Positions 3,494 to 34,618 of a DNA stretch of 34,618 nucleotides are shown here, one piece after another. A program made the translations under genes and the position numbers. How positions within the stretch are numbered: position 1 is the stretch's first letter; every line of letters begins with the position of its first letter. The notes below the pieces were generated by a model. The model searched no databases. It was not told the DNA's origin and saw only the letters and a program-made list of their open reading frames with translations. This DNA is from a virus: IMG/VR virus record IMGVR_UViG_3300018424_000087, positions 1 through 34,618 of that record. The stretch is one strand, 5' to 3'.

Positions 3494-3816
3494 TATCTCA
3501 CACCTCTATTCTTTGGCTGGAACTCTATGTGTATATGATCTTTCTCAAGTACAACATCGAACTCGCTGCCAAGTTCTTCAGCTAAGCCCTCTGTGAACTC
3601 AGCTAAACCTTTAGATTCTATTGCCCATATCCTTATATCAGCAGCATACCCAATATAATGAAGGGAACCGTGAGAATGCTTCCCGTCAACAATGGACGTT
3701 AGAACCATCTCGTTTATTCCCATACTGTTAAAGTATCCATGAGCTATATCTATACCTAGCACAAGCTCAGGCTTTATGCCGTTGATAGAAACTCCGTGCT
3801 TAGTCCTAATCGCCAT
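3493..3816 (-). CDS. Endolysin, M15-type peptidoglycan peptidase
   Basis: The 107-residue protein has the zinc-binding pattern of peptidase family M15: SLHYIGYAAD (residues 51-60; ligands His53 and Asp60) and EKDHIHIEF (91-99; His94/His96 region). Phage M15 enzymes cut peptide stems or bridges of peptidoglycan. It is a single catalytic domain with no signal peptide or cell-wall-binding domain, as is usual for Gram-negative phages, so it needs the adjacent holin to reach its substrate. ATG 3816 touches the end of the giant gene. The next gene starts at its stop codon. Confidence 0.85.
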   Translation of the reverse strand: MAIRTKHGVSINGIKPELVLGIDIAHGYFNSMGINEMVLTSIVDGKHSHGSLHYIGYAADIRIWAIESKGLAEFTEGLAEELGSEFDVVLEKDHIHIEFQPKNRGVR

Positions 3817-6800
3817 CAGTTTATTCCCCTAAAGAACGGTATAGGTCCGGGCATCATTTTAGTAAACTCCTGCGTGTTACTAAGAATCTGCTTTATTCTA
3901 TTATCTATACCATCAATTATATCTCTTTTTCGGGAATCATCCATATTCTTATCTAGGAAAACCCTAGTCTTCATAGACCTTAGTTCATTAAGATCTGTTT
4001 GAATGCTTTCAAGAGAACTCTTTATGGACAGAACATCAGCGTATTTCTCTCTCATTTCCATAGCTCTTTCGGGATCTTCTTTTTCTAGATCTCTGAGCCC
4101 TGAAACAATTCCCCTGACAGAGAAGAAGAAATCATTCCATCTTTGCGTCTGCCCTTCTGATGCGTTGGCACTTTGGAATATCGCACCGACGATCGGGATT
4201 TCATCCTGCCTCCAATTCATCATGATCGGCTTTCCGCTAACCAAAGACGTTACTGAATCGAGTAAGCCAAGCATGTAGCTACCCATAGTCCCAGCATATC
4301 CTTCTAGAACATGCTCGACAGAAAGGGGGCTAAGCGGTACTGGGCTCAGGTATGAAAGCTGCTTTGCGAACTCGCTGGTATAATATTTAGCTTGAAGTTC
4401 TTTCGGCCTATCTTGCATATACTCAGGAACGATAGGCTTGCCGGTAAACCAACTCTTATTAACCAAGACTTCAAATATCGGAGCCACCGCTTGCGGTCCA
4501 GTCAGCGGAAGCTCAAGCGAGTTGACGATTCCTCTAGTTACGGAATTCCCAGCTTCCCTAAGCGACTCATCTTGTAGTATGGCTCTAGTTATATGCTCTG
4601 GAATTACCTTGAATATAAGACCAACTTCAAAGGGGATGGGTATCTTTAAAGTTGTTTGACCGGGTAGCGTAATGAGCCAGTTGTCATCTCTTTCCGCGTC
4701 TGTCGCGCCCTTGTATTCTTCATCGTCTATGGATAGGGATGTATACAGGACAGTCATAGCTGCCAGAAACAGTCCCCTTCTCAAGAACGATGCTTGAGCT
4801 TCTTCCTTACCCAACCTGTTAGCTGAATACTCTCCAGTTAAAGACCTGTATATCACGTCCAAGCCTTGCATTCTCGCGTTGAAGAACGGAAGGGTTGGCA
4901 GTATGGTATTTAGGAAAGCATTGTTTCCCTTTCTGGTGAAGTTCAGAACTTCCATAGCCTGAAATATTGCTTCGGCTTCGGCCTCGGCTCTTCCAACGCC
5001 CTTGTTGAGCAGTCTCTGTAGAGTGTCCTCATAGACTACTTGCCTTGTCGCAGCATCGGAAACTTGAGATGCTTCACCCAGCGAATCCCATATTCTTGAG
5101 AAGATGGGAGTGACAGAATCAACACTCCCCTTCTTCATGGTCATTCCCTGCTTACGCATCTTCTTTCTGAAGTTTTCTTCAAACTTCTTAGGCTCGAACA
5201 CATAATCGTACCCGCCTACGATCCCAGCATTTTCAAGTACTGAGTAGGTCTGTGTTCTGTCGCCAGATAGATCACCAATGAATTTATTCATAGTGTCTAT
5301 TACTGGTTTCATTTCCACACCGGATGTAACATAAGAAGATACTGAATCCCTGAACAAGTTCCTGAATATAAACATAGGACTTCTTGCTACGGACTCTCGC
5401 AACCAAGAAGCTGGCTTAGCGAAGAACGGGGATATGGATACGTTCGGCCTTGTAAATCCCTCTATCGCAGCAACCAACTTATCATCAGTAACATCAAAGT
5501 ATCTCTCTTCTCCGTTGACCCTCACTGTGTAGTATGCGGGATCAACATATCCATTCTCATCCGCAAATACTTCTGTTGCGATCCCTGCATCGACAGCATC
5601 TTTCATGGTCTGCTGAGCTGCAAGATTCTTCATGCCAGCAGTTATTGATGCGCTTAGGTTTTTCATGATGCCCGTGAGGGGATCATCTAGCTGCTGCTCT
5701 CCACCCTTCATCCTTCTGGGTACTTTATTGTCTATAAGGCTAGGGAATAAACTCTTTAGCCTTCTCACTCTTCCCAGTGTGAGATCAATTCCTTCATCCT
5801 GAAGAATCTGCTTGAATATCTCCGGCCTTACGCCTTCTTCCCCGGTACCATCCAGATCTAAGTTTCTGTAGAAGGGAATGTAGTCAGCGTACTTAACAAA
5901 TACTCTCGCGAGTTCTTCGTTGATTACGCCTGTGTCTTTCAAGAACTCGACTAGGCTTCCATTCCATTCTTCGTAATCTCTTCTCACGCTCTCGAAGAGC
6001 TGTAGATTCCCGCTGCTATTTACATAGTCATTAACTCTGTTCACTTCTTCTTGTGACAGAGGAGTAAGCCTTCCTGATCTCATGATATTTGTAGATCTGT
6101 TTGCGACCATCCAAGTCGCCCACTCTCTATACAAATATTCATTAGATTCAAACAGTGGCTGAAGAGCCTGCGTTAAACTCTTTTTTGTCGGATCTATTCT
6201 TGCGATCCCGCCTCTTAAAACTACGGCTCCATTGTTTATCATTGCTGAAGTGAGACTGTTGGATCTGTCAGCTAAGAGCCATAGGGAATGAGCATTCGTG
6301 CTTGCGAGTAGCTCTCTCTCATCTTTCTTGCGTAAAGATGCTTTCTTATTTACTTTAGCTATGTAATCATATTTATCTAGGAATGCAGACCTGAATCTAG
6401 ATATGTATTCTTTTCTTTTTTCATCATCAAATATGATGGACTTTATCTTGTCAAAGAAAGACTCTTGAACATTCGGCTTTGCGTAAAGAGTGTTGAGTAT
6501 TTGTTCAATACTTCTATCTACTCTCGGCTCCGTCCTGACGATTCTATTTTTATTTGAAGCAGATAATCTTTCAGGCTTTGTATTTCCGTCTGCTATCGAC
6601 GCAGATCTGATGCTAAGTCTTTCGTCAGACTCGAAAGCAGGACGCTTTTTAGCGTAGAGTTTCTTAACTATTGATATGGCTTTGTCTTCGTAGATGACGT
6701 AGTTCTTTGCTTTCGGATCGTAACCCGGCGTTAGTGAGGCGGCATCATAGTAATGCCCCTTGATTCCGTACTTATTCAAAAGCTCTGAAGCGTACTGCTC

Positions 6801-9800
6801 TCTCTGCCCAAGGAATGAAAGCTCGTCGTAAAATTCAACGGCTAATGCGTCTCCGTCCTCTCCGTAGAGTTCATTAAACTCCTCGGACATATTTTCAGAT
6901 TCAAAAGCCTTCCTGAAAGCTTCCACAACCTTCGGGCTCTGGTCTCTCATAGAGCCGTTGTAATCAAATAGGTCTTCTTTTTCAGGTATTTCAACTTCGT
7001 AAAGTTGAGATTCTATATTAAAATCATCTTTTGATATAGAATTCATAGCATTAACAAACTCTTCGCTAACAAGCCTAGCAGCATTATCTTTTACTTTTTC
7101 AGATTCATAAAAGATTCCTATATTTTTAATCCCTCTAAATACTGCGTCGCTAATTGATGTAGCTATTTCAAAAAATCTATTTGAATACCAATCATCAGTA
7201 TTTAAAATATTAAGATCTGTGTTGACTTGTTTTCTAAGGTCTGATAAAGATGCTCTTGCAATTTCATTTTCTATACTTTTTCTTACTTCGCTTCTCTGGG
7301 CATCTGTGAAATCTATGTTGTCATAAATTTTTATTTTCGATATCTCAACCGCTTTATTAGCTATGTTAAATGTTGTAAATTGCTCGTCCAGTGGGTGAAA
7401 CCCAAACTCTTCTCCCTTGTAAGTAATTTTACTTAGAGAATTCGCATAGAATCTCCCAATAGATAACAAGTCAGTGAAGTAAAGTCCCCACCCAAAGGCT
7501 TGTGCGCCCTCACCAGTACCTATGAAATCCAAACTAAACTCGTCAAAGTCTTCACTAGACCCGTGATAAGCTTTCGCTAGCCGCTCGTCATTGAAGTCTC
7601 TAACAGCTCTGTTTGTGAAATCCATCCTAGAATATTCATTTACTCTAGGGATAGACCGTTGTGCATTCGGGCTCGGCTGATTTAGCTGAGTGTAAGGGGA
7701 TACTGAAAACCTTTCTGACTCATCTGACTGCCTTATTTCGTTCTCCCACATTTCAGTAGTGGCAGTATCCGCATCCATCAGATAGTCTACAGCTTTATCG
7801 AGTGCTATTTTGTAATTTAACGCACGATCTCTAAGAGCATCAAGCTCATCGAAAACGTATTCCATCTGCTGTTCTTGACTGAGATAATCAGCTCCCATAT
7901 CTACAGCCGCTCGCCGTGCTGTTACAAAGGCTTCACTATCCATTGCCAAGCCGGTCTTAGCTTCAACAAGTCTCCTTTCAAATCTAAGTTCGTTTTCTCC
8001 TTCCCTAAGCTGTCTATACGAATCTCCATATCTTCTATTCGCTGATAGATCTAAGGAGGATCTAGAGAAAGGTTTTAAATAAGAGGGAAGTATCGAAAGG
8101 TCAGAGCCAATCATTTCAAGAACTTTATCAATTTTCTCTTCTAGCTTCTGACCTAAAGACCCTATCTCTACAGACAACTCACCCGGTATCTCAAATCTTT
8201 CCCAAACATAGTAGTCTCCAGAAGAACGATTGTTTTCTACGTCATCGGACTGCCTTATTTCGTATTCTGGCATAGACCTTTCAATCAAAGTGTATTCTGG
8301 CATAGACCTGTCAATCAAAGTGTATTTATAATTACCTTTCTGCATTGTGAAAAGAGAGTCAAGCCGCTCTGCCTCTTCCGTTACCTCGTATCCAAACTTC
8401 TCACCAAGCTGCTTAGATCCTCTTCTGTATATTTTAATTCTTGATCTTTTTTGTTTTGAATTTTCTTCTCGTGTGGTAGTAGCAGCGGAGAAGAAAATTC
8501 TTCTAGGGTTTTTTAAAAGAATAATCTCTTCCATGATATCGAAAATAGTTTTGAATATTCTGATAGACCCTAATCCATGTAAGCCAGTTACTCCGTAACC
8601 CATTTCATCATCTTTAAAAACTACGTCGTAATCTCCGCTGTCACCGTAAGTACTTGCATTTAAAGTTATAGTGACATTATTTTCCGTGGCGAACGTAGCG
8701 AGTAGGCCGCCATCCCATGAAGGCCTCATTTCATAAGGATATGGAACCGCTCGATCGACAAGCGATGCGTACCTTTCCTCAAACTCTTCTTCATTTTCCC
8801 TTAGTATAAACTCGTACTCGCCGTCTTCTGTCTTTTCTAATATGAACTCTGATCCGCCCTCGGTCCTTTCTTCAATTAACCTGTATCCATACTTCTTCGC
8901 TAGATTATTTATTCCAGCCCCGTACAGCCTTTGCCTAGTCTTTACCAGCCTGAATGTTCCGTCTGGTTCCTCTCTAAGATCTGACGCAGCATCGAAGTAA
9001 AGAGATTTAAAGTCTTTATTCTTTATAACTTCTTCTGTTAAATCAAAAACTGTAGCGAATAATCTTCTAGCTTTTCGACTGCCTAACTTGCCTGTTCTAT
9101 CAAATTGAAGCCCCGGAGAAGCTAATGCATCCTCAAACGCTACATAGTATTCTCCGTCATACCCGAAAGCATCATAGTTAATTCTTGCTAATACAGAATT
9201 TCTTTTTATATTCTTGTCTTCATCATATTCAAAACTTTCGCCGACGGGAATAAGTATCGTTGCTCTTAACGAGCTTCCGTCTTTTCCACCAATTTCTCTT
9301 TCCGTTATAGAATATTCAAATCTTTTAGATTTATCTAGAATAGAAGATAATCTTTCATCGCTGATATCATCTATTTCTACTTCTTCTGAAAGGTTGACTT
9401 GATCTGGCGATACAGAAAATGGCGACGGAGCGACGGACATTCTCTCGCCAGAACCAACGCCGCTTTCATCCTGCACCGTGTAACTGTACTCGCCCTTCTT
9501 CGCTAAAAAGAAAGATTCCTTATCTCTTACAGTTTCCTCTACGGCGTACCCGAAGTCCTTGCCCACATCCTTCATCATGCGACGGTAGATACTCGCTCTG
9601 GATGTAGATTTCTCCCCTTTCCTGTTCAGTCTGCTGGCGGAGATGCTTAACTGTTCAGGGTTCTTAGACTCCACAAATTCCCTGAGTAGGTTGTGTACAG
9701 TCTTAAAGACCCTGAGAGCGCCGATGCCTTCCTTTCCAGTGTCCCCGTAGCCAAGTAGAGATTTCTTGTCTCTATCGTCTAGATCCCTAAATTCTGCGGT

Positions 9801-12800
9801 CCAACGTATGCTGCCCCCGTCGTTGGACGCAAAGAATTCAAATCTGCTTCCTGACTCAGAAACGAAGTTTGCAATAAACTCATTTGGATTTGAGTCAGAC
9901 ACCTCATACTCATACGGATCAACCCGACCCATAAACCTTGCAAGTCTTTCATCTACATCTACAGAAAATCTTGCGTCAACATCTTCTTGCGTCGTGTCTT
10001 CTTCTGGGATCTCTATAGGCAAAGCAGGCATGAGTTTATTTCTCTGCCCCTGTATCGTTCTGACTTCGCCCCGATCCCTTGCCTGTATCTTCTTCATGCC
10101 GCTGATAACATCAGCCGCATTGACGAATCCAGCTCCGCTTAAAGCGTTGAACATCTTCTCTAAGAACATCGCTATTCTTTCGATAAGAGTTCTGGGCTTA
10201 CCAGCGATCTGCCTTCTCACCTCGGGAACGCTGTAATACTGCCGGTACATCTCTGCCACAGCTTCTTCTAGTATATATTCAGCGTCGCCCATTCCTTGAT
10301 AGGTCTGAGATGCCCAGTCGAAGAATGTCTGACCGTCTCTGTTCCTTACCCGATAAGTTGAATTGGATAAGACATTCCATTCTTGAATGGTAAATAAGTC
10401 TAAGTCTCTCATTGCATGGACTATCTCATGGTCCATGATGCTGGCAATGAGAACTCGCATCTCTTCGTTGGTCTTGGCCTTGCTGACTGCTTCTAAGCTT
10501 ATAGCTATACGCCTGAACCCATCGTCATTAGGGCTGTAAGCTCCTTCGTTGATTCCGCTAGAGCCTATCTTTTCCCTTACAGATGCAATGACTTCCTTGC
10601 TGAGATTCGCTTCTTTCAGCTTGCTATCTATAATAGATAGAATCTCTTCACCCTTCTTAACGCTCCCTTCGGGAATGCTCTTGAGAACCTTAGCTCTCTT
10701 AGATACGGGAGTGAGTCTCTCGGGTTCTGCCGGTAACACAGCCGTGGAGACAGCCGAATCAATATCTCTTAAGAATCTTCTTTGAAGTGATTGCTTCTTT
10801 CTTTCCTTTGCTCGCTCGCTGTTGGCTTCCCAGTTAGATTCTCCGGGCTCAAAGGACTTCGAGTATTCATCCTTTAATGCTTCAGCAATATCTCTAGTCG
10901 GAGCGAAGGTTATCTCGGTAACATTCACCCTCTTGTTACTGGACGGATTCTCAGATCTAGATACTTCGCCCGTAGCTCTGTTCTTGAAATAATCATAGGG
11001 TGAAACAAACTGTCGAACTGCGAACCCTTCGCCGTCTATGACAGAGAACTTACCCTTGTAAGGCTCTATCTTCTGACCGCGATAGTCCGCGAGTCTGGCC
11101 GTACCTCTCATGTATCCGGGGAGTCCGGCAGATCCAGTCTTGGATCGTTCGACTGCGGCCTTTACGTCTGAATACTTGCCGACCAGCGGGTTACCAGTTG
11201 TCTTATCGAAAACTCTATACAAAGCCCTGTTCTGGTTTAGGAACTTTGCTTCTTTCTCTGCATCCTTTTTGTTTACAGATCCACCCACAACGGTTCCATC
11301 TTCGTCCACAACGAAGAAACCATTCTGAGAATCCATAACTTCAGTCACAACATTGCCAGCGGTTGATCTGCTGAGTATTCTTTTCTTATCCACAGCACCG
11401 GCTTTGATTACCGGAGAGCCGTTCTTATTGAGTAAAGGTCTTATATCCGCGTCTTCAGAAGATTCATCCATTTTAGATCTAAACGATACGGGCGCGTATT
11501 CGCCTGCGGATTTCATTTCTTCAGTTCTTGTCTTGGATAGATCACCTCTGACAGTCGCATCTGAAACAAAAGAATTGAAATCCTCTTCGTTGAATCTTCC
11601 GGTTACTCTTTCGTAATCACCACGATTTATAGAACCAGAATCCTGAGCTTCTTCGATTAAAGCTTCGTACTGAGCTTCTGTATACTTAGGCTTTCGCGCT
11701 TTCAATGACCCCTTTTCTTCTACCGCATATCCCTTCCTCTTCATCTCTTCGATGATGGAGTTGGCTATAATCCTAGAGCCTTCGGAGTCTGCGAACTGAA
11801 CAGGAGATTCTTGATTCTTCTTGAAGAACCTATCGTTCAATCTCTTTCTTACTGCATCTGAAGTAATCTTCTGCCCACTCTTGAAACCCTTTACCGCAGA
11901 ATCAAACTCCTCTGAAGTAAACGAGGGAAGGCTTACGCCATCCCCCTCTTCATCGAAGTATGATTGAACTGTCAGTCCAGAAAGAATTGTACGCATTGCA
12001 CTACGCTCATCTTGCGTAGTCTCATTTAAGTTTGAAGTTCTTCCTCCGGTACTTCGGTACACAAAGGATTTGAAAGCATTATCGTTTGTCTTTATATTTC
12101 TAGATCTGGCAGCGTCTATGACATGAGAAGCATCCACAGGGAACTCGTCTTTGGCTCTCTGTGCTTCCCTTTCGATATTCTCTCTCTGTCCAGATAGAGC
12201 TGCTTCTTCTGCCGCTACTCTGCTTTCGTACTGGTTGAGATTATCTTTGTATCTCGCTACAGATTCTTCGTATCTTCTCTGTAGAGTATCTTCTCTTCTT
12301 TTTTCGTATCCATTTCTTATTTCCTTTTCTTTTTCGGATAGCTTTTCCCAATTATCAAATGCCTTTTTGTTGGATCTGTACGCTCTAGCAGTTCCGAATG
12401 ATCCAAACGCGCCGACAACAGGAGCGGTTCCAGCTACAACATCCATCATCTCGCTGACGAAATTTGCGTCCTCGAACGAAATGGACTCTCCAGCTTGAGC
12501 CCTTTCAAGCACGGTCTGTGCAAGCTCTGTCGGAAACTCAAGCAGAGACTCTGTGAAAGCTTCTTTTGCAGATTCCTTCAAGCTAGGGAACGTGGCTGCT
12601 CTGGCTGTCCCACCGGCTAACCTGAGGGAATCTTTCACAGACTTGGCGGCGGCGATCTGAACTCCCCTGCCAAGTCCTGAAGTTAAGGCTATCGTTATGA
12701 AGTCCATTGCTGCTTGCGGTCCAGCAGCCAAAGCGGCAGAGTATAGGGTTATGTCATCAGGCGTTACCCTGCCTTCAGGGTCCTTGCTCTCGGCAACCTC

Positions 12801-13412
12801 ATATTGTCTTTGCAAATTGTCGCCAAGGAACTGTAGGGCGAGCGTGCCAACACCCGCCAAGGTTCCTAAAGCAACCTTCGCATATGGGTTGGGTATTGCT
12901 GCACCAGCCCTAGCGAGCATGGGAACAGCCCTGCCAATCATAGATGCTGCTCTTACGCCGAGTGAAGTTTGTGCCGCAGATGAAGCAGCTAATGAGGGAA
13001 GCGTGTACGGTATTGTCTGGCCTATGGCCTGAGCGCCAAACCTATAAGCCTCTGGTAACGCTCCAGATATCCCTTCTTTCTCATAGGCTTCTACAACATC
13101 TTCTCTGGTTGTCGGTAACGGCTGAAGCTTTCTCTGCTCTTCCTGAGTGGCTCTATATATTTCCCCGGCTTCATCTAGACTTTCTTGAGATCCGAACACG
13201 TCCCCGAAGATCATACTCGGAAGAGCAGATATAGATCCCTTCAGGGATTCAACGCCAGAAAGGAAGGCATTATCCAGCCCGCCAGTCAGCCCGGTGCTTC
13301 GCCTTCTAAGTTCTTTCTCTACATCATAAAAGGAAGTACCCTTTTTAAATTCAACGATCTCACCGTTGATGGGGACTTTAAAATCTCTGTCGAGAAAACC
13401 TTCTTTAGCCAT
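3816..13412 (-). CDS. Giant polyvalent virion/ejection protein (3198 aa)
   Basis: This is one uninterrupted frame of 3198 codons. Order seen: Gly/Ala-rich hydrophobic helices (about 110-340); a coiled coil (about 350-430); a gluzincin-like peptidase with HEIVH at 995-999 and EEAVAE at 1049-1054; three divergent copies of a ~165-residue domain (about 1150-1310, 1350-1536, 1541-1697); an ADP-ribosyltransferase domain (about 1945-2250) with AYHG at 1948 and FGWGLYFTD at 1973-1981; and a long C-terminal region including a segment near 2911 (NWLITLPGQTTLKIPIPFE) resembling large polyvalent-protein domain LPD38. Polyvalent proteins are carried in virions or conjugation systems and delivered with DNA to counter host defences. 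Delivery and targets here are inferred. The gene follows the ejection-protein block and precedes lysis. AGAGG lies about 12 bases before ATG 13412. Confidence 0.85.
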   Translation of the reverse strand: MAKEGFLDRDFKVPINGEIVEFKKGTSFYDVEKELRRRSTGLTGGLDNAFLSGVESLKGSISALPSMIFGDVFGSQESLDEAGEIYRATQEEQRKLQPLPTTREDVVEAYEKEGISGALPEAYRFGAQAIGQTIPYTLPSLAASSAAQTSLGVRAASMIGRAVPMLARAGAAIPNPYAKVALGTLAGVGTLALQFLGDNLQRQYEVAESKDPEGRVTPDDITLYSAALAAGPQAAMDFITIALTSGLGRGVQIAAAKSVKDSLRLAGGTARAATFPSLKESAKEAFTESLLEFPTELAQTVLERAQAGESISFEDANFVSEMMDVVAGTAPVVGAFGSFGTARAYRSNKKAFDNWEKLSEKEKEIRNGYEKRREDTLQRRYEESVARYKDNLNQYESRVAAEEAALSGQRENIEREAQRAKDEFPVDASHVIDAARSRNIKTNDNAFKSFVYRSTGGRTSNLNETTQDERSAMRTILSGLTVQSYFDEEGDGVSLPSFTSEEFDSAVKGFKSGQKITSDAVRKRLNDRFFKKNQESPVQFADSEGSRIIANSIIEEMKRKGYAVEEKGSLKARKPKYTEAQYEALIEEAQDSGSINRGDYERVTGRFNEEDFNSFVSDATVRGDLSKTRTEEMKSAGEYAPVSFRSKMDESSEDADIRPLLNKNGSPVIKAGAVDKKRILSRSTAGNVVTEVMDSQNGFFVVDEDGTVVGGSVNKKDAEKEAKFLNQNRALYRVFDKTTGNPLVGKYSDVKAAVERSKTGSAGLPGYMRGTARLADYRGQKIEPYKGKFSVIDGEGFAVRQFVSPYDYFKNRATGEVSRSENPSSNKRVNVTEITFAPTRDIAEALKDEYSKSFEPGESNWEANSERAKERKKQSLQRRFLRDIDSAVSTAVLPAEPERLTPVSKRAKVLKSIPEGSVKKGEEILSIIDSKLKEANLSKEVIASVREKIGSSGINEGAYSPNDDGFRRIAISLEAVSKAKTNEEMRVLIASIMDHEIVHAMRDLDLFTIQEWNVLSNSTYRVRNRDGQTFFDWASQTYQGMGDAEYILEEAVAEMYRQYYSVPEVRRQIAGKPRTLIERIAMFLEKMFNALSGAGFVNAADVISGMKKIQARDRGEVRTIQGQRNKLMPALPIEIPEEDTTQEDVDARFSVDVDERLARFMGRVDPYEYEVSDSNPNEFIANFVSESGSRFEFFASNDGGSIRWTAEFRDLDDRDKKSLLGYGDTGKEGIGALRVFKTVHNLLREFVESKNPEQLSISASRLNRKGEKSTSRASIYRRMMKDVGKDFGYAVEETVRDKESFFLAKKGEYSYTVQDESGVGSGERMSVAPSPFSVSPDQVNLSEEVEIDDISDERLSSILDKSKRFEYSITEREIGGKDGSSLRATILIPVGESFEYDEDKNIKRNSVLARINYDAFGYDGEYYVAFEDALASPGLQFDRTGKLGSRKARRLFATVFDLTEEVIKNKDFKSLYFDAASDLREEPDGTFRLVKTRQRLYGAGINNLAKKYGYRLIEERTEGGSEFILEKTEDGEYEFILRENEEEFEERYASLVDRAVPYPYEMRPSWDGGLLATFATENNVTITLNASTYGDSGDYDVVFKDDEMGYGVTGLHGLGSIRIFKTIFDIMEEIILLKNPRRIFFSAATTTREENSKQKRSRIKIYRRGSKQLGEKFGYEVTEEAERLDSLFTMQKGNYKYTLIDRSMPEYTLIERSMPEYEIRQSDDVENNRSSGDYYVWERFEIPGELSVEIGSLGQKLEEKIDKVLEMIGSDLSILPSYLKPFSRSSLDLSANRRYGDSYRQLREGENELRFERRLVEAKTGLAMDSEAFVTARRAAVDMGADYLSQEQQMEYVFDELDALRDRALNYKIALDKAVDYLMDADTATTEMWENEIRQSDESERFSVSPYTQLNQPSPNAQRSIPRVNEYSRMDFTNRAVRDFNDERLAKAYHGSSEDFDEFSLDFIGTGEGAQAFGWGLYFTDLLSIGRFYANSLSKITYKGEEFGFHPLDEQFTTFNIANKAVEISKIKIYDNIDFTDAQRSEVRKSIENEIARASLSDLRKQVNTDLNILNTDDWYSNRFFEIATSISDAVFRGIKNIGIFYESEKVKDNAARLVSEEFVNAMNSISKDDFNIESQLYEVEIPEKEDLFDYNGSMRDQSPKVVEAFRKAFESENMSEEFNELYGEDGDALAVEFYDELSFLGQREQYASELLNKYGIKGHYYDAASLTPGYDPKAKNYVIYEDKAISIVKKLYAKKRPAFESDERLSIRSASIADGNTKPERLSASNKNRIVRTEPRVDRSIEQILNTLYAKPNVQESFFDKIKSIIFDDEKRKEYISRFRSAFLDKYDYIAKVNKKASLRKKDERELLASTNAHSLWLLADRSNSLTSAMINNGAVVLRGGIARIDPTKKSLTQALQPLFESNEYLYREWATWMVANRSTNIMRSGRLTPLSQEEVNRVNDYVNSSGNLQLFESVRRDYEEWNGSLVEFLKDTGVINEELARVFVKYADYIPFYRNLDLDGTGEEGVRPEIFKQILQDEGIDLTLGRVRRLKSLFPSLIDNKVPRRMKGGEQQLDDPLTGIMKNLSASITAGMKNLAAQQTMKDAVDAGIATEVFADENGYVDPAYYTVRVNGEERYFDVTDDKLVAAIEGFTRPNVSISPFFAKPASWLRESVARSPMFIFRNLFRDSVSSYVTSGVEMKPVIDTMNKFIGDLSGDRTQTYSVLENAGIVGGYDYVFEPKKFEENFRKKMRKQGMTMKKGSVDSVTPIFSRIWDSLGEASQVSDAATRQVVYEDTLQRLLNKGVGRAEAEAEAIFQAMEVLNFTRKGNNAFLNTILPTLPFFNARMQGLDVIYRSLTGEYSANRLGKEEAQASFLRRGLFLAAMTVLYTSLSIDDEEYKGATDAERDDNWLITLPGQTTLKIPIPFEVGLIFKVIPEHITRAILQDESLREAGNSVTRGIVNSLELPLTGPQAVAPIFEVLVNKSWFTGKPIVPEYMQDRPKELQAKYYTSEFAKQLSYLSPVPLSPLSVEHVLEGYAGTMGSYMLGLLDSVTSLVSGKPIMMNWRQDEIPIVGAIFQSANASEGQTQRWNDFFFSVRGIVSGLRDLEKEDPERAMEMREKYADVLSIKSSLESIQTDLNELRSMKTRVFLDKNMDDSRKRDIIDGIDNRIKQILSNTQEFTKMMPGPIPFFRGIN
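8230..9958 (-). repeat. Triplicated ~165-residue domain inside the giant protein
   Basis: Three consecutive stretches share one order of features. Each has a lead-in (ERLARFMG / ERLSSILD / ERYASLVD), a Tyr-rich strand, and 'YDVVF/YYVAF/WTAEF'. Then come G-rich 'RVFKTVH/RLFATVF/RIFKTIF' helices, a 'SISAS/YFDAAS/FFSAAT' strand, a basic 'IYRRM/RLYGAG/IYRRG' helix and a GY turn, ending 'YSYTV/YEFIL/YKYTL'. They are too divergent to be recent copies. The function of the fold is not known; the strand-helix order is reminiscent of small transferases, but I cannot assign it. Confidence 0.6.
8262..8321 (-). repeat. 30-base tandem duplication in coding sequence
   Basis: Two 30-base units (8262-8291, 8292-8321) differ at one base (8280 versus 8310). 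They add ten residues, giving consecutive copies of 'YTLI(D/E)RSMPE' just after the third repeated domain. The near identity suggests a recent event. The frame is kept. Confidence 0.9.
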
Positions 13413-28657: not shown

Positions 28658-31072
28658 CTACGGATTGCTTAAGGTCTGCGTCGGGCAAGTGCTAGATGTA
28701 ATGACAGCATTATCCGCTCGCACAAACACTTCAGCTTTGCACGCAATGTTGGTTGCCGCAGCGGTGAACGTCATGCTCGCAGTACCTGTACCAGTCGAAA
28801 CGAGGTTAAACTCAAGGACTGTTGCGTCATTTGTATGTCCTTGAACCGTCAATGTCACTCCGGGTTCAATCCAGATCTCTACCCTTTTGTGTATGTCGGT
28901 CGTTCCTGTAATTTCTGGCAGGGTCACAGTGTATGTAGCTCCGATAAGATCAATGGCAGTATATGAAGAGTCCCACGCGGAGATCGTGAGTCCGGGTCCG
29001 GTTCCGTAAAGTGCATTCTCGGTGTCACCAATTTCTGGGAAGTTTGAAAACGATGTGTTAGGCGGAGTCGGCTGGGCTGCTTCGACGTAGGCCACATCAG
29101 CAGCCGACCAGACCAGCATGTTCCCGTCCGTGTGCGTCACGGCGTTATCGACCACGGCAAAGTAGCCTTGGTTGAAGCCCTGCTGTCCCACGCCCCATCC
29201 CTTATCGGATGAGACGATGAGGGACATATCGTAGTTGCCGTACATGCTGATGACCGGGATGCCGTCGTAGGGTGTGCCCCAATGGTTGTCAGCCGTCGGT
29301 GGGTCGAGGAGGATCGGGACGCCGGTAGCACCCAGAGCCCCACCTTGATACCACTTGTACCTCATGCCGACGTTGGCACCCCACTCGGAGAAGTCGATGC
29401 CGTAAGCAAACCCGCCTTTCGTTCCGTCCTTGAGACACGAGGTTGCCCGGTTGTCGGTAGCACAACCTACGCCCTCGACACGGAAAGCCGCGTCGATCTG
29501 GTGGCGACCACGGAATCCCAGCTCGTTCTGAGCCGTGAATGCCGCGCCGTTGCTGATAGGCTTGATGTCGGCGGTCATGAGAACCTTGACGCCCGTGGTC
29601 TTGAACTCGCCGTAGGGGACTACATCCCAGTCGATGGACCCAGCCTCGGAGTACGAAGAGGTCTTCCAGACCGTGACGCCGTTCACCAGCTTGGTGTTAT
29701 CGTCCTGACTCACGCCCGTGATCGTGTAGCAGGGCGCGAAGCTCAGGGAGTCCGGGTCGAGCGACCACAGGTGCGAGTCGGGGTACTGCTGATCCACGCC
29801 CTGTCCCCACATTTGGGTGGTAAAGGATAGACCGTCAGCAGCGATGGCGGAAATCATCAGCCAGTAGCGGGACTCCGTGCCGGTGCCCGGCGTGGAGGCG
29901 ATGCTGTATGCGTCGTGAGAAACGCACCAGTTACCAGCCTCGATGCCCGTGCCGTTGACCGTCGTAGTGACCGCCCAGTCGTCCTTGGTGATTCCATTCT
30001 TGGTGTTGCCTACGATGACCGTGGAGCCGGGTTGCCCGTCCGGGGTGCGCGTGAACGCAGCGGCTGAGCCCGAGAAAACGAGGGGCTTGCCCACGCCGAT
30101 GTAGCGGCCCTCGGATTCTGAAACGTCAGATAGGGAGACAGCCACCTCGCCCGTGTCCGACGGTATAGCAGCCGTGCCGAAGGCGTTGCCCCAGTTAGGG
30201 GTCATCGCAAGGCGGATACCGTTAGCACCCTCATCACCCGAGGTATGCGATCCACCGGAACCCTTGATGTGGATGCCGATGCCGTTGGGGTCCGTGTCGC
30301 CCGATGTGATAAGGTCGAGGTTGATAGGCCACGCCTCGTTTGGCGTCCGGTTGATGTGCTCGATGTAGAGGCCCGAGGTCTTAGTCTTTAGGAGGCCGGT
30401 ACTCGGGCAGGTGAACCACGGCTTGGAGGAGTCAGCGCCCAGCGTGGCGGTCGGGCAGTTAGCCTTCACGCCGTTGGTGTTGAAGTCGGGATTGAACATA
30501 GTACCAACCACCCAGCCGGGGGATGTAACGGTGGTTTCTATGAAGTCTCCCTCGCCGTCTCCCCACTCGATAAACGAGAGTCCGTTCACGCCGGAGATAT
30601 AGGAGCCACTAGCCGAGCCTGTGAGCGTATCGCTGGCATTGCTGATTTGATCCCAACTTCCCTTGATAGTGAGCTTTCCGGTTCCTGCCGTTGTAATCTC
30701 AATAACTATATAACGCTTTTTAGACTTAAAAGATTCTACAGTTAGATCCGTAGTCGCTAACGCAGTAACAAGCGTGCATTCGCCACTGGCACTTAAGTCG
30801 CCGCCGCCGCCGCCATTCGGCGTGTCGCAGACATGAAGCTCGGCAGCAAAGCCCCCAGCTCCATTAGACCAGTCAAGCGAAAACAACGGATAAGAAAAAC
30901 CAAGGCTGTACACACCTGCTGTGTTTGAAGTAACAAAATCGACTGTCATCATGCCAAAGTCAACGGAGGTGTCACCATCCTTCGCTTGCTTCTTGACAGA
31001 CGGAGACGCTGCATACGATGGCGTTGCAAACGCTAGTATCGTAAGCAGTGAAATCAAAAAGTTTTTAATCAT
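28658..31072 (-). CDS. Spike-like protein with Sec signal peptide, 804 aa
   Basis: Residues 1-21 form a classical signal peptide: basic start MIKN, hydrophobic core FLISLLTILAFA, and a TPSYA-A cleavage site. The mature protein is beta-rich with many Gly, Ser and Thr and about ten cysteines, several spaced as pairs (ADNRATSC-like and CPTATL...WFTC). That would suit disulphides outside the cytoplasm. No catalytic motif was recognised. The central part (about 28960-30650) is clearly GC-richer than both ends: 67% and 63% in two counted lines, against 40-45% outside. This suggests an exchanged domain. The gene lies in the structural operon, with ATGA coupling to the upstream membrane protein. A receptor-binding spike or a secreted coat-modifying protein are both possible. 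Confidence 0.6.
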   Translation of the reverse strand: MIKNFLISLLTILAFATPSYAASPSVKKQAKDGDTSVDFGMMTVDFVTSNTAGVYSLGFSYPLFSLDWSNGAGGFAAELHVCDTPNGGGGGDLSASGECTLVTALATTDLTVESFKSKKRYIVIEITTAGTGKLTIKGSWDQISNASDTLTGSASGSYISGVNGLSFIEWGDGEGDFIETTVTSPGWVVGTMFNPDFNTNGVKANCPTATLGADSSKPWFTCPSTGLLKTKTSGLYIEHINRTPNEAWPINLDLITSGDTDPNGIGIHIKGSGGSHTSGDEGANGIRLAMTPNWGNAFGTAAIPSDTGEVAVSLSDVSESEGRYIGVGKPLVFSGSAAAFTRTPDGQPGSTVIVGNTKNGITKDDWAVTTTVNGTGIEAGNWCVSHDAYSIASTPGTGTESRYWLMISAIAADGLSFTTQMWGQGVDQQYPDSHLWSLDPDSLSFAPCYTITGVSQDDNTKLVNGVTVWKTSSYSEAGSIDWDVVPYGEFKTTGVKVLMTADIKPISNGAAFTAQNELGFRGRHQIDAAFRVEGVGCATDNRATSCLKDGTKGGFAYGIDFSEWGANVGMRYKWYQGGALGATGVPILLDPPTADNHWGTPYDGIPVISMYGNYDMSLIVSSDKGWGVGQQGFNQGYFAVVDNAVTHTDGNMLVWSAADVAYVEAAQPTPPNTSFSNFPEIGDTENALYGTGPGLTISAWDSSYTAIDLIGATYTVTLPEITGTTDIHKRVEIWIEPGVTLTVQGHTNDATVLEFNLVSTGTGTASMTFTAAATNIACKAEVFVRADNAVITSSTCPTQTLSNP

Positions 31073-31314
31073 TTAAAATATCTCCAAATTTCAAAAAGTC
31101 CCATTCCAGCCAACCAAAAAGCCATATCTTTTCTAGTGTCTGCAACTCTTTCGACAGGCCATTGAAGCCAAAACTCTCTCATGTAAAGTACGGCAGCAGA
31201 CGAATAAGCACCGCCGAGTGCAGATAAGGAAAAGCCGCAGATCAAATGCAAAGTCTGATCTACGGCTTCCCTTCCTCTAGGACTTAAATTCTTATACCAT
31301 TGAGGGTCTGACAA
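31069..31314 (-). CDS. Two-segment membrane protein, 81 aa (holin candidate)
   Basis: Two hydrophobic stretches, about residues 23-44 (LHLICGFSLSALGGAYSSAA) and 66-77 (FWLAGMGLFEIW), flank a polar loop containing 'REFWLQWPVERVADTRKDM'. Small phage membrane proteins with a 'REFxQxWP...DxxxD' loop are common in marine genomes and are sometimes called putative holins. The start is a TTG at 31314 with no convincing SD. Translation is probably coupled to the preceding stop 3 bases upstream. It overlaps the spike start by 4 bases (ATGA). A role is not established, and a holin is already present at 3317-3493. Confidence 0.6.
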   Translation of the reverse strand: MSDPQWYKNLSPRGREAVDQTLHLICGFSLSALGGAYSSAAVLYMREFWLQWPVERVADTRKDMAFWLAGMGLFEIWRYFK

Positions 31315-31749: not shown

Positions 31750-31765
31750 AATTGTTCACCTCATT

Positions 31766-31814
31766 GCACGCAATTACCCTGTCAGTCCGCGTGCTGTCTT
31801 TTAAGTCTGACAGG
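31766..31814 (-). promoter_or_regulatory. H-type pseudoknot in the leader of the fibre-like gene
   Basis: Read leftward, CCTGTCAG (31814-31807) pairs with CTGACAGG (31785-31778). GCACGC (31794-31789) pairs with GCGTGC (31771-31766). The pairs interleave, giving an H-type pseudoknot with helices of 8 and 6 perfect bp and loops of 12, 3 and 6 bases. The 3' helix ends 3 bases before the SD GAGGTG (31762-31757). This geometry could control ribosome access, as the gene 32 leader pseudoknot does in T4. No known family was recognised. Confidence 0.55.
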
Positions 31815-31820
31815 ATTGGT

Positions 31821-32073: not shown

Positions 32074-32478
32074 CTAAACCTTCTTCCTATGCTTAGCAGT
32101 TTTCTTTGCTATTGCCTTAGGCTGTTTTGAAAACTGTTTACCCTTCTTGGTGTCTTCGCGCTTCTTTTTAGAAGTCGCAGCATATTCTTTACTCGACAAA
32201 GCTTCTCTAGCTTTTTTCGGTAGATATCTTTCTCCGGTAGCCTTCTTTCCCTGAGTGCTGGGCTTACCGGACTTGGTTCCCCAATCTTCTTTAGTCCACT
32301 TTGACAAGGACTTTTGAGCTTTAGTCTTGCCGCCCTTAAAGCCGCCGCCAGCTTCCTTATATAGTTCATTAGCTCTCTGAGCTTTTCTAGCTGTCCACTG
32401 ACCCGGCTTTCCGCCTTTACCGCTAGCTGTGACCTGAGAAACAATTCTTTTTCTAAGAGAAGGGTTATCATAAGCCAT
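32074..32478 (-). CDS. DUF5872-like basic protein, 134 aa
   Basis: The N-terminal half shows the pattern 'GKGGKPGQWTARKAQRANEL', then 'YKEAGGGFKGGKTKAQKSLS' with KWTKEDWGT, and 'RYLPKKAREALSSKE'. I associate this pattern with DUF5872, found in phages and giant viruses. The C-terminus is a run of Lys-rich sequence (KKKREDTKKGKQ, KTAKHRKKV). The overall charge is very positive. Function unknown; DNA or RNA binding is plausible. ATG 32478 shares a base with the upstream stop (TAATG). The family name is from memory of the motif and should be tested. Confidence 0.62.
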   Translation of the reverse strand: MAYDNPSLRKRIVSQVTASGKGGKPGQWTARKAQRANELYKEAGGGFKGGKTKAQKSLSKWTKEDWGTKSGKPSTQGKKATGERYLPKKAREALSSKEYAATSKKKREDTKKGKQFSKQPKAIAKKTAKHRKKV

Positions 32479-32705
32479 TAGCTTCTCACAAAGTAATCAA
32501 TCATCCAAGTCAGGATGCTAAGAAAAAATATAAGGGCAGAGCCAACTCCGTAAACTTTATTCTTAAACTGATGAAGCTCTAGCCTTACCGAATCAATCTC
32601 GTCTATCATTGCATTAATAGAAGTTCGATCACTTCTAGCTCGATGTTCGAGACTTTTGATCTTCTCTTCAATAGAGCCGATCTCTCTTTCGGTTATAGGC
32701 GTCAT
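32478..32705 (-). CDS. Coiled-coil protein with C-terminal membrane segment, 75 aa
   Basis: Residues 5-50 form a charged coiled coil (EREIGSIEEKIKSLEHRARS). Residues 52-70 form one membrane segment (VYGVGSALIFFLSILTWMI), ending YFVRS. The layout is like XhlA/holin-accessory proteins of phages. The gene follows the structured element behind the capsid gene, and its ATG has only a weak SD (AAGTGA). It is unclear whether it is a lysis accessory, a superinfection factor or something else. Confidence 0.58.
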   Translation of the reverse strand: MTPITEREIGSIEEKIKSLEHRARSDRTSINAMIDEIDSVRLELHQFKNKVYGVGSALIFFLSILTWMIDYFVRS

Positions 32706-32717
32706 TCACTTTAAGCG

Positions 32718-32794
32718 AAATAGGTTGGGGAGAGGAGGAATCGCCCGATTAACCTCCCCTCCCCCCTGCGGGAACTTCCCACAGATACCTATTT
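32718..32794 (-). ncRNA. Three-way-junction RNA element behind the capsid gene
   Basis: Read leftward, the whole gap folds into three helices. P1 is AAATAGGT (32794-32787) with ACCTATTT (32725-32718), 8 bp. P2 is CTGTGGGA with TCCCGCAG (32784-32777, 32773-32766), 8 bp including one G-U, closed by a 3-base loop. P3 is GGGGAGGGGAGG (32764-32753) with CCTCCTCTCCCC (32738-32727), 12 bp including one G-U, capped by AATC/GATT. Junction strands are 2, 1 and 1 bases. Both G-U pairs become mismatches on the other strand, so the leftward RNA is the relevant one. It starts within the capsid stop codon. No U-tract follows. Confidence 0.6.
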
Positions 32795-33704
32795 ACGCAC
32801 CCTCAGAACCGTAGATTCCGAGCGGGTCCGAAACGCCGAAGCTGTATCGCTCGCGGCACTTGTATCGGACATTGCCGGTGTCGAAATCACCGTCCATCGA
32901 GGTCTGCATCGGGGTTCGCGTGAAACCCTTCATGCCATTCGGAACATCCGTAATGATGAACCAAGCATCGGGGTCAGTCAGGTAATGATTAATGCGATGC
33001 CCCTCAGGGATAACTCCGTTATTTCGGAGAGCATTGATGTCATTATCTGCCGTCCCGGCGCGACGATCCGTCTCAAGGAAGCGGGTGGCAACAAACTGAA
33101 GATCCGGGGGGATAATCAGTCTGCGCGCACGAGCCGCAATCTTAAGACCTCTCTGGTCAGTGAATCCAGCAATGTCGATAATTGCCTGCTCCAACGAAGT
33201 CTCGTTAAGATCAGACGCAACCGAAGGCTGATTGGCATTGACGCCACCATCGACTCTCGGATGAGACGCATTGAAAAGCGTAACTCCGTCACCACTGGTA
33301 AACGCGCCACCCGTGAACCCGTTGTTCAGCGGATAAGCAGCCTTGACCTGCTTGGTGTTCGCCGCAGCGCGAGCGAGCGCCTTGGTGTAGCGAGCCGAGA
33401 GCGAATCATAAAGATTATCCTCGATCTCCTCCTCCGTAATGGAAAAGCCAAGAGCAACCGTCTCGTGGTTGTAGCGAGCCGTAAAGGCTTCCTGCGCCGT
33501 ATCATAAGCGATAGCAGCACCCTCAGACTTTACCGGAGCCGAACCAAAGCCGGAAAGCTGGACTTCCTCCTCGAACGCTCTGTCCGAGGTTTCCATCTCA
33601 TAAATATCCTCATGCTCGTTTTCATACGAGCCATACTCCATACCGAAAAGAGCATTCAGCCCCGGCAGGAGTTCCTTCATCATTTGCGCTCTAGAAATAG
33701 CCAT
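32793..33704 (-). CDS. Major capsid protein (Mu gpT-like, HK97 fold)
   Basis: The 303-residue sequence matches the Mu-like major head subunit group. It has an N-terminal 'LPGLNALFGMEYGSYENEHE' region, then 'FEEEVQLSGFGSAPVKSEG', and 'YNHETVALGFSITEEEIEDN'. A glycine-rich loop is followed by 'FNASHPRVDGG', then RRLIIPPDLQFVATRFLET and a C-terminal 'RYKCRERYSFGVSDPLGIYG'. Length is in the usual range, and no protease domain is fused. AAGGAG lies 9 bases before ATG 33704, in the loop of a small TTAGT/ACTAA hairpin. None of the 17 isoleucine codons I counted is ATA, unlike the early genes. Strong expression is expected. Confidence 0.88.
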   Translation of the reverse strand: MAISRAQMMKELLPGLNALFGMEYGSYENEHEDIYEMETSDRAFEEEVQLSGFGSAPVKSEGAAIAYDTAQEAFTARYNHETVALGFSITEEEIEDNLYDSLSARYTKALARAAANTKQVKAAYPLNNGFTGGAFTSGDGVTLFNASHPRVDGGVNANQPSVASDLNETSLEQAIIDIAGFTDQRGLKIAARARRLIIPPDLQFVATRFLETDRRAGTADNDINALRNNGVIPEGHRINHYLTDPDAWFIITDVPNGMKGFTRTPMQTSMDGDFDTGNVRYKCRERYSFGVSDPLGIYGSEGA

Positions 33705-34320: not shown

Positions 34321-34376
34321 TTCTCCTAAAAATCAAGCGGCGACTTGTAGGAGAACTTCTCCTAAGAGCCGTCGCC
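34321..34376 (-). promoter_or_regulatory. Hairpin with possible SD-sequestering switch
   Basis: Read leftward, TAGGAGAA (34364-34357, including the upstream stop) can pair with TTCTCCTA (34355-34348). GGCGAC/GTCGCC (34376-34371, 34344-34339) would enclose it. The same TAGGAGAA recurs at 34328-34321 as the SD of the decoration gene, so the middle segment could pair with either copy. A ribosome on the upstream stop could shift the balance. A TTTTT run at 34332-34328 makes weak termination another option. Confidence 0.45.
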
Positions 34377-34618
34377 AAACTTGACGCGAGTGATCCTGTC
34401 CGGTCGGAGCAAGGGCATTCTCGCATCATTCTCTCTCATCAAGTTGTTATCAACGGCATCCATTTGGATTCTAGATTGCTCTCGCATGTAATCATTTCGC
34501 TCTTTAACTGTACGAGCGTCACACTTGCAAAGCATCAATCCACCGACAACGGCAGCTCCGTCAAACCTAGTGTCGATATCAGGAAGCAATCTAAGCTCGG
34601 GATGATCCTCAAGCCTAA
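34362..34618 (-). CDS. C-terminal part of an upstream head-region protein (partial)
   Basis: The frame is open from the window edge to TAG at 34364-34362. An apparent TTG start at 34589 is not needed, because the frame continues upstream (RLEDHPELR...) without a stop. The visible 84 residues include RFDGAAVVGGLMLCKCDA, then 'REQSRIQMDAVDNNLMREND' and 'MPLLRPDRITRVKFGDG'. It is mostly helical with a hydrophobic patch. Its place just before the decoration and capsid genes suggests a head-region or scaffold-type protein. I do not recognise the family. Confidence 0.6.
   Translation of the reverse strand, partial: RLEDHPELRLLPDIDTRFDGAAVVGGLMLCKCDARTVKERNDYMREQSRIQMDAVDNNLMRENDARMPLLRPDRITRVKFGDGS

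Follow-up and report, generated by a model that had tools for sequence, protein, structure and literature searches.

The window, a viral record of 34,618 bases, carries genes that all lie on the minus strand from 34,616 to 1,494. One of them encodes the major capsid protein, which is 68% identical to its counterpart in Planktothrix phage Pag-Yong1. The gap behind this gene is 87 nt long. A 77-nt RNA element fills 75 nt of the gap and leaves 12 nt before the next ATG. The capsid stop codon, UAA (TAA at 32795-32793), extends into the first base pairs of helix P1, which thus starts within it as the initial annotation had described. The first gene past the element has no match among PHROG profiles. 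Minus-strand ORFs run on from 32705 to 1494, as in the malE/puf class of operon, and probably form one transcript with the capsid gene. Among them is one late-positioned ORF of 3,198 codons (3816-13412, minus strand). Features of the locus are listed below.

Table 1. Features at the 3′ end of the capsid gene. MFE, minimum free energy; CM R1, covariance model.
Feature	Position	Strand	Remarks
Major capsid protein gene	32793..33704	−	PHROG 371 major head protein, E 5e-21
Whole three-way-junction RNA element, 77 nt	32718..32794	−, same strand as capsid gene	MFE, z, CM R1 match
P1 5′ arm, AAAUAGGU	32787..32794	−	Pairs with 32718-32725; compensatory changes in L010-L013
P2 hairpin, CUGUGGGAAGUUCCCGCAG	32766..32784	−	100% of cells paired in 9 relatives; U-G/C-G/U-A and G-C/G-U exchange
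P3 hairpin, 12-bp GGGGAGGGGAGG/CCUCCUCUCCCC plus 4-bp AAUC/GAUU past UU bulge, loop GGGC	32727..32764	−	99.3% of cells paired
P1 3′ arm, ACCUAUUU	32718..32725	−	Fold and comparison with relatives
Downstream gene, 75 aa, first cistron past element	32478..32705	−	

Refolding of the minus-strand RNA from 32794 to 32718 gave a three-way junction, with P1 of 8 bp, P2 of 8 bp (9 in the MFE structure), P3 of 12 bp and linkers of 2, 1 and 1 nt. This is exactly the arrangement that had been annotated; the annotation had missed a 4-bp extension at the tip of P3, past a 2-nt bulge. The MFE is −45.5 kcal/mol and the comparison with shuffled sequence, which the initial annotation had proposed, gave a z of −6.6, with none of 200 shuffles folding as well. 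The plus strand folds worse: over the 77-nt segment at 32719 it reaches −36.1, and the minus strand −44.9. Among 9,870 segments of 77 nt from both strands, none outside the element equals its stability. When intergenic gaps of 25 nt or longer were compared, the gap that holds the element had the strongest fold (z −5.6). The next (z −4.7) adjoins a tRNA-Ile gene with anticodon TAT, in the gap at 1134-1493 on the plus strand.

P3, and the fold as a whole, provide the stable G+C-rich hairpin of an intrinsic terminator. The U-tract that should directly follow the hairpin is absent from the element. P3 is followed by AACCUAUU (8 nt, three U residues) and P1 by CGCUUAAA (8 nt, two U residues). Hence, ordinary intrinsic termination is unlikely, and the initial annotation was right to consider it a poor explanation.

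Relatives of the capsid gene were taken from viral contigs, and the DNA behind their stop codons was compared; L-numbers denote these relatives. The junction is present in nine distinct rows of such downstream sequences. The P1 pair adjoining the junction is U-A, G-C or A-U among the relatives. One pair of P2 varies between U-G, C-G and U-A, and the next between G-C and G-U. In P3 of L012, a G-U is displaced by one pair. Six cells are changed on both sides, where shuffles gave 2.5 +/− 1.0. The covariation score is 0.108 against 0.066, with none of 500 shuffles as high and all slid versions lower, for nine rows from few, related lineages in which P1 provides most of the signal. Since the shuffles ignore relatedness, the result is to be read as support and not as a probability. 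In ten sequences, each P1 arm fitted its own partner better than swapped ones (permutation p 0.003). On the capsid mRNA strand, G-U occupies 16 cells of P2 and P3, and A-C none. This points to RNA, and a palindrome acting at the DNA level was rejected. Because relatives keep the fold through compensatory and G-U changes, we conclude from the comparison that it is a real RNA structure under selection. The covariation check among relatives that share this capsid gene, the main one proposed in the initial annotation, thus bears out its view of the fold.

P2 and P3 are also similar in sequence. Between lineages, 52-55 of 60 positions are identical, while four-fold sites of the capsid gene are only 57-66% identical. 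Either the sequence itself is under constraint or the segment recombines. The last 50 capsid codons are no more similar than the remaining gene, which speaks against a recombined block.

The P2 and P3 patterns, run independently over 2.9 million viral contigs, found the identical 13 public contigs besides the window. In every one of these that includes the capsid gene, the element lies behind it. The covariance model, which scores the element of the window at 110 bits (the sequence itself being part of the model), found a single full copy per record. The multiplicity of REP-type sequences was not seen, and additional matches were antisense or at chance level. A mobile or repeated element was rejected, given that both patterns led to the same contigs and always to the capsid gene where present. 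There was no match to the element among cultured phages in the collection searched.

The gene that follows the element is less constant. The 32478 gene is found there in the window's subclade and in L012, and is replaced by an unrelated gene in L010, a homologue of the 31821 gene in L011 and a homologue of the 32074 gene in L013. As the downstream gene varies while the element stays, the element appears to serve the capsid gene and not its neighbour; control of the downstream gene's start was rejected for the same reason. Readthrough of the capsid stop codon was also rejected. Frame 0 stays open in the window, whereas in L010 and L011 a UAG codon that follows CCG closes it within P2. Inspection of the sequence before the capsid stop revealed no slippery site for frameshifting. 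A three-way ribozyme of the hammerhead type can be set aside because linkers of 2, 1 and 1 nt are too short for the catalytic core, and there is no such Rfam match.

We also determined what other relatives carry at this site. The more distant relatives comprise 176 distinct downstream sequences with capsid identity below 82.5%. A loose test for a terminator called for a hairpin of −8 kcal/mol or better, then at least 5 T in 8 nt; a strict test called for 4 consecutive T. All 176 distant relatives pass the loose test (32 of 176 when shuffled) and 158 pass the strict test (shuffled, 10). Conversely, the strict test detects a terminator in one of 14 members of the window's clade (shuffled, 5 of 140). 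The loose test is passed by four (L005, L008, L009 and L090), all marginal and little above the 19 of 140 obtained with shuffled sequence. Neither test detects a terminator in the window.

In the capsid tree, the nine junction carriers and five carriers of long hairpins poor in U form one group (support 99/92). L014, a long-branched carrier of a terminator, is nested inside the group at weak support. The long hairpins, which are closed by a stem, likewise start right behind the stop codon. Covariance model R1 matches exactly at this site in L009 (E 8e-7), L006 and L007 (0.001) and L008 (0.013), where calibration and E-values are rough. The single hairpins of L005-L009 thus share with the element its site, a P1-like closing stem and a purine-rich P3 5′ arm, but are without P2, which was either gained once or lost in L005-L009. 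Canonical terminators (e.g. those of L015, L018 and L065) share the site, a purine-rich 5′ arm (mean purine 0.74) and a pyrimidine-rich 3′ arm (mean purine 0.24). Compared with them, the element has lost the U-tract, has a longer hairpin and has added P1 and P2. Taken together, the terminators of relatives, the long hairpins and the model matches indicate that the capsid 3′ site is of terminator type. Within one phage lineage, the window's clade, the U-tract has been lost from this site and a larger, conserved RNA fold has arisen there. The best explanation is that the element descended from, or replaced, a capsid terminator.

The presence of a terminator at the site in all 176 relatives, and the constant association of the element with the capsid gene, support a role for the element at the capsid mRNA 3′ end. 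The reading that we favour, at about an even chance, is that, in the late operon, it forms an exonuclease-resistant 3′ end of the malE-malF/puf type for this mRNA. Most RNA polymerases would read through the element, and the longer transcript would be cut or would end further downstream. Exonucleases acting 3′ to 5′ would then trim back the RNA and halt at the very stable junction. Hence, the capsid-coding segment would be protected and would yield more mRNA than the genes behind it. Because P1 sits under the ribosome at the stop codon, P2 and P3 would be free to fold during translation, and P1 would close the junction once the ribosome departs.

There are precedents for such an arrangement. 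In Escherichia coli operons, stabilised upstream genes end at stable hairpins that are free of a U-tract and block 3′ to 5′ exonucleases, malE-malF being an example (PMC5927463). Rho-ended transcripts have been interpreted as trimmed back to hairpins of this kind (PMC13289151). The malE-malF and puf intercistronic stem-loops (mRNA decay terminators) and the U-tract-free hairpins of E. coli (PMC5927463) resemble the element in being stable, conserved and placed behind an abundant upstream gene in an operon, with no U-tract. Unlike them, the element is a three-way junction rather than single hairpins, is found in phage and is present in a single copy. Its unusual stability just after the upstream gene, and the lack of a U-tract behind it, are sequence features of this protective class; protection itself we infer. 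A more specific proposal is that the element is a compact branched RNA, evolved from the capsid terminator, that resists exonucleases by junction geometry and conserved loops and not by hairpin strength alone. This we regard as rather unlikely. The natural series of terminator, long hairpin and three-way junction may illustrate how phages set a high ratio of capsid to other proteins via mRNA 3′ ends.

The main rival is a leaky terminator poor in U residues. The strong hairpin, together with the slightly U-rich 3′ arm of P1, would stop some polymerases and yield more capsid transcript, as T-phi of phage T7 does. Position is the best argument for this reading, given the terminators of the more distant relatives. 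T-phi follows T7 capsid gene 10, and in the T7-like phage LUZ100 the capsid gene is directly followed by a strong terminator (PMC10134795). The element shares with both the position directly behind the major capsid gene, in a late operon, but is branched and without a U-run. A terminator able to function despite a poor U-tract would also account for the same sequence facts. There is a run of U7 about 10 nt past the junction in L013, and four clade members do reach the loose threshold. Set against this are the strict test, which most distant relatives pass and almost no clade member does, and the three U residues after P3 in the window. Furthermore, a proper U-tract terminator does occur elsewhere in this genome (2944-2909, minus strand); it is the clearest in the window, with AGCCCUCGC-loop-GCGGGGGCU followed by UUUUUCUUUU. 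Thus, host or phage polymerase apparently uses such terminators. A leaky terminator is possible but, on this evidence, doubtful.

RNase III sites separate the mRNAs of phage T7. The element could likewise be a site at which RNase III, or another endonuclease, splits the capsid mRNA from the downstream mRNA. P3 offers a long helix, of 12 + 4 bp, and P1 and P2 contribute duplex. However, RNase III prefers roughly two helical turns, and the helices here are broken by the junction and shorter than that; cutting P3 would also destroy the protected end. We consider such a site unlikely. Least probable of all is a functional RNA with a ligand of its own, either a protein-binding site (e.g. for feedback of capsid or scaffold on translation) or an RNA that is processed out. 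Conservation of P2 and P3, loops included, beyond the needs of pairing would fit such a role. Conversely, the related hairpins of L005-L009 have no P2 and have different loops at the same place. The element matches no Rfam 15 family at the gathering threshold, and a search relaxed to E<=10 yielded nothing beyond tRNA and chance microRNA matches. The interpretation in the initial annotation is partly supported: the RNA structure is real, the comparison favours a role at the capsid mRNA 3′ end, and of the four options that it listed (RNase III site, 3′ stabiliser, leaky terminator and functional RNA) the stabiliser and then the leaky terminator are the likeliest.

Other structures were seen near the capsid gene. 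On its 5′ side, between genes 34362 and 33721, a conserved hairpin covers a stop codon and ribosome-binding region (34332-34385, minus strand). The sequence is GGCGACGGC...TAGGAGA-GT-CTCCTA...GTCGCC, then GATTTTTAGGAG. Relatives at 67% protein identity retain this hairpin, and in L014, L015 and L017 it is re-paired with different sequence. As a lead only, the conserved structure on this side of the cassette means that a two-gene capsid segment may be bracketed by protective structures (34385-34332, minus strand, on the 5′ side). Within the ORF at 31069-31314, a near-perfect 15-bp hairpin lies in the coding region (about 31225-31274, minus strand), with a U-rich stretch behind it in the window. 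It shows compensatory changes (AAGCCG/CGGCTT to GAGGCCG/CGGCCTC) in relatives down to 69% protein identity. Finally, the words CCTGACAG, CTGACA and GACAGGAG are repeated at 31750-31820 and in many capsid relatives (e.g. L065 and L074). In many relatives they lie upstream of the homologue of the 31318-31749 gene, as a possible operator, promoter or RNA element.
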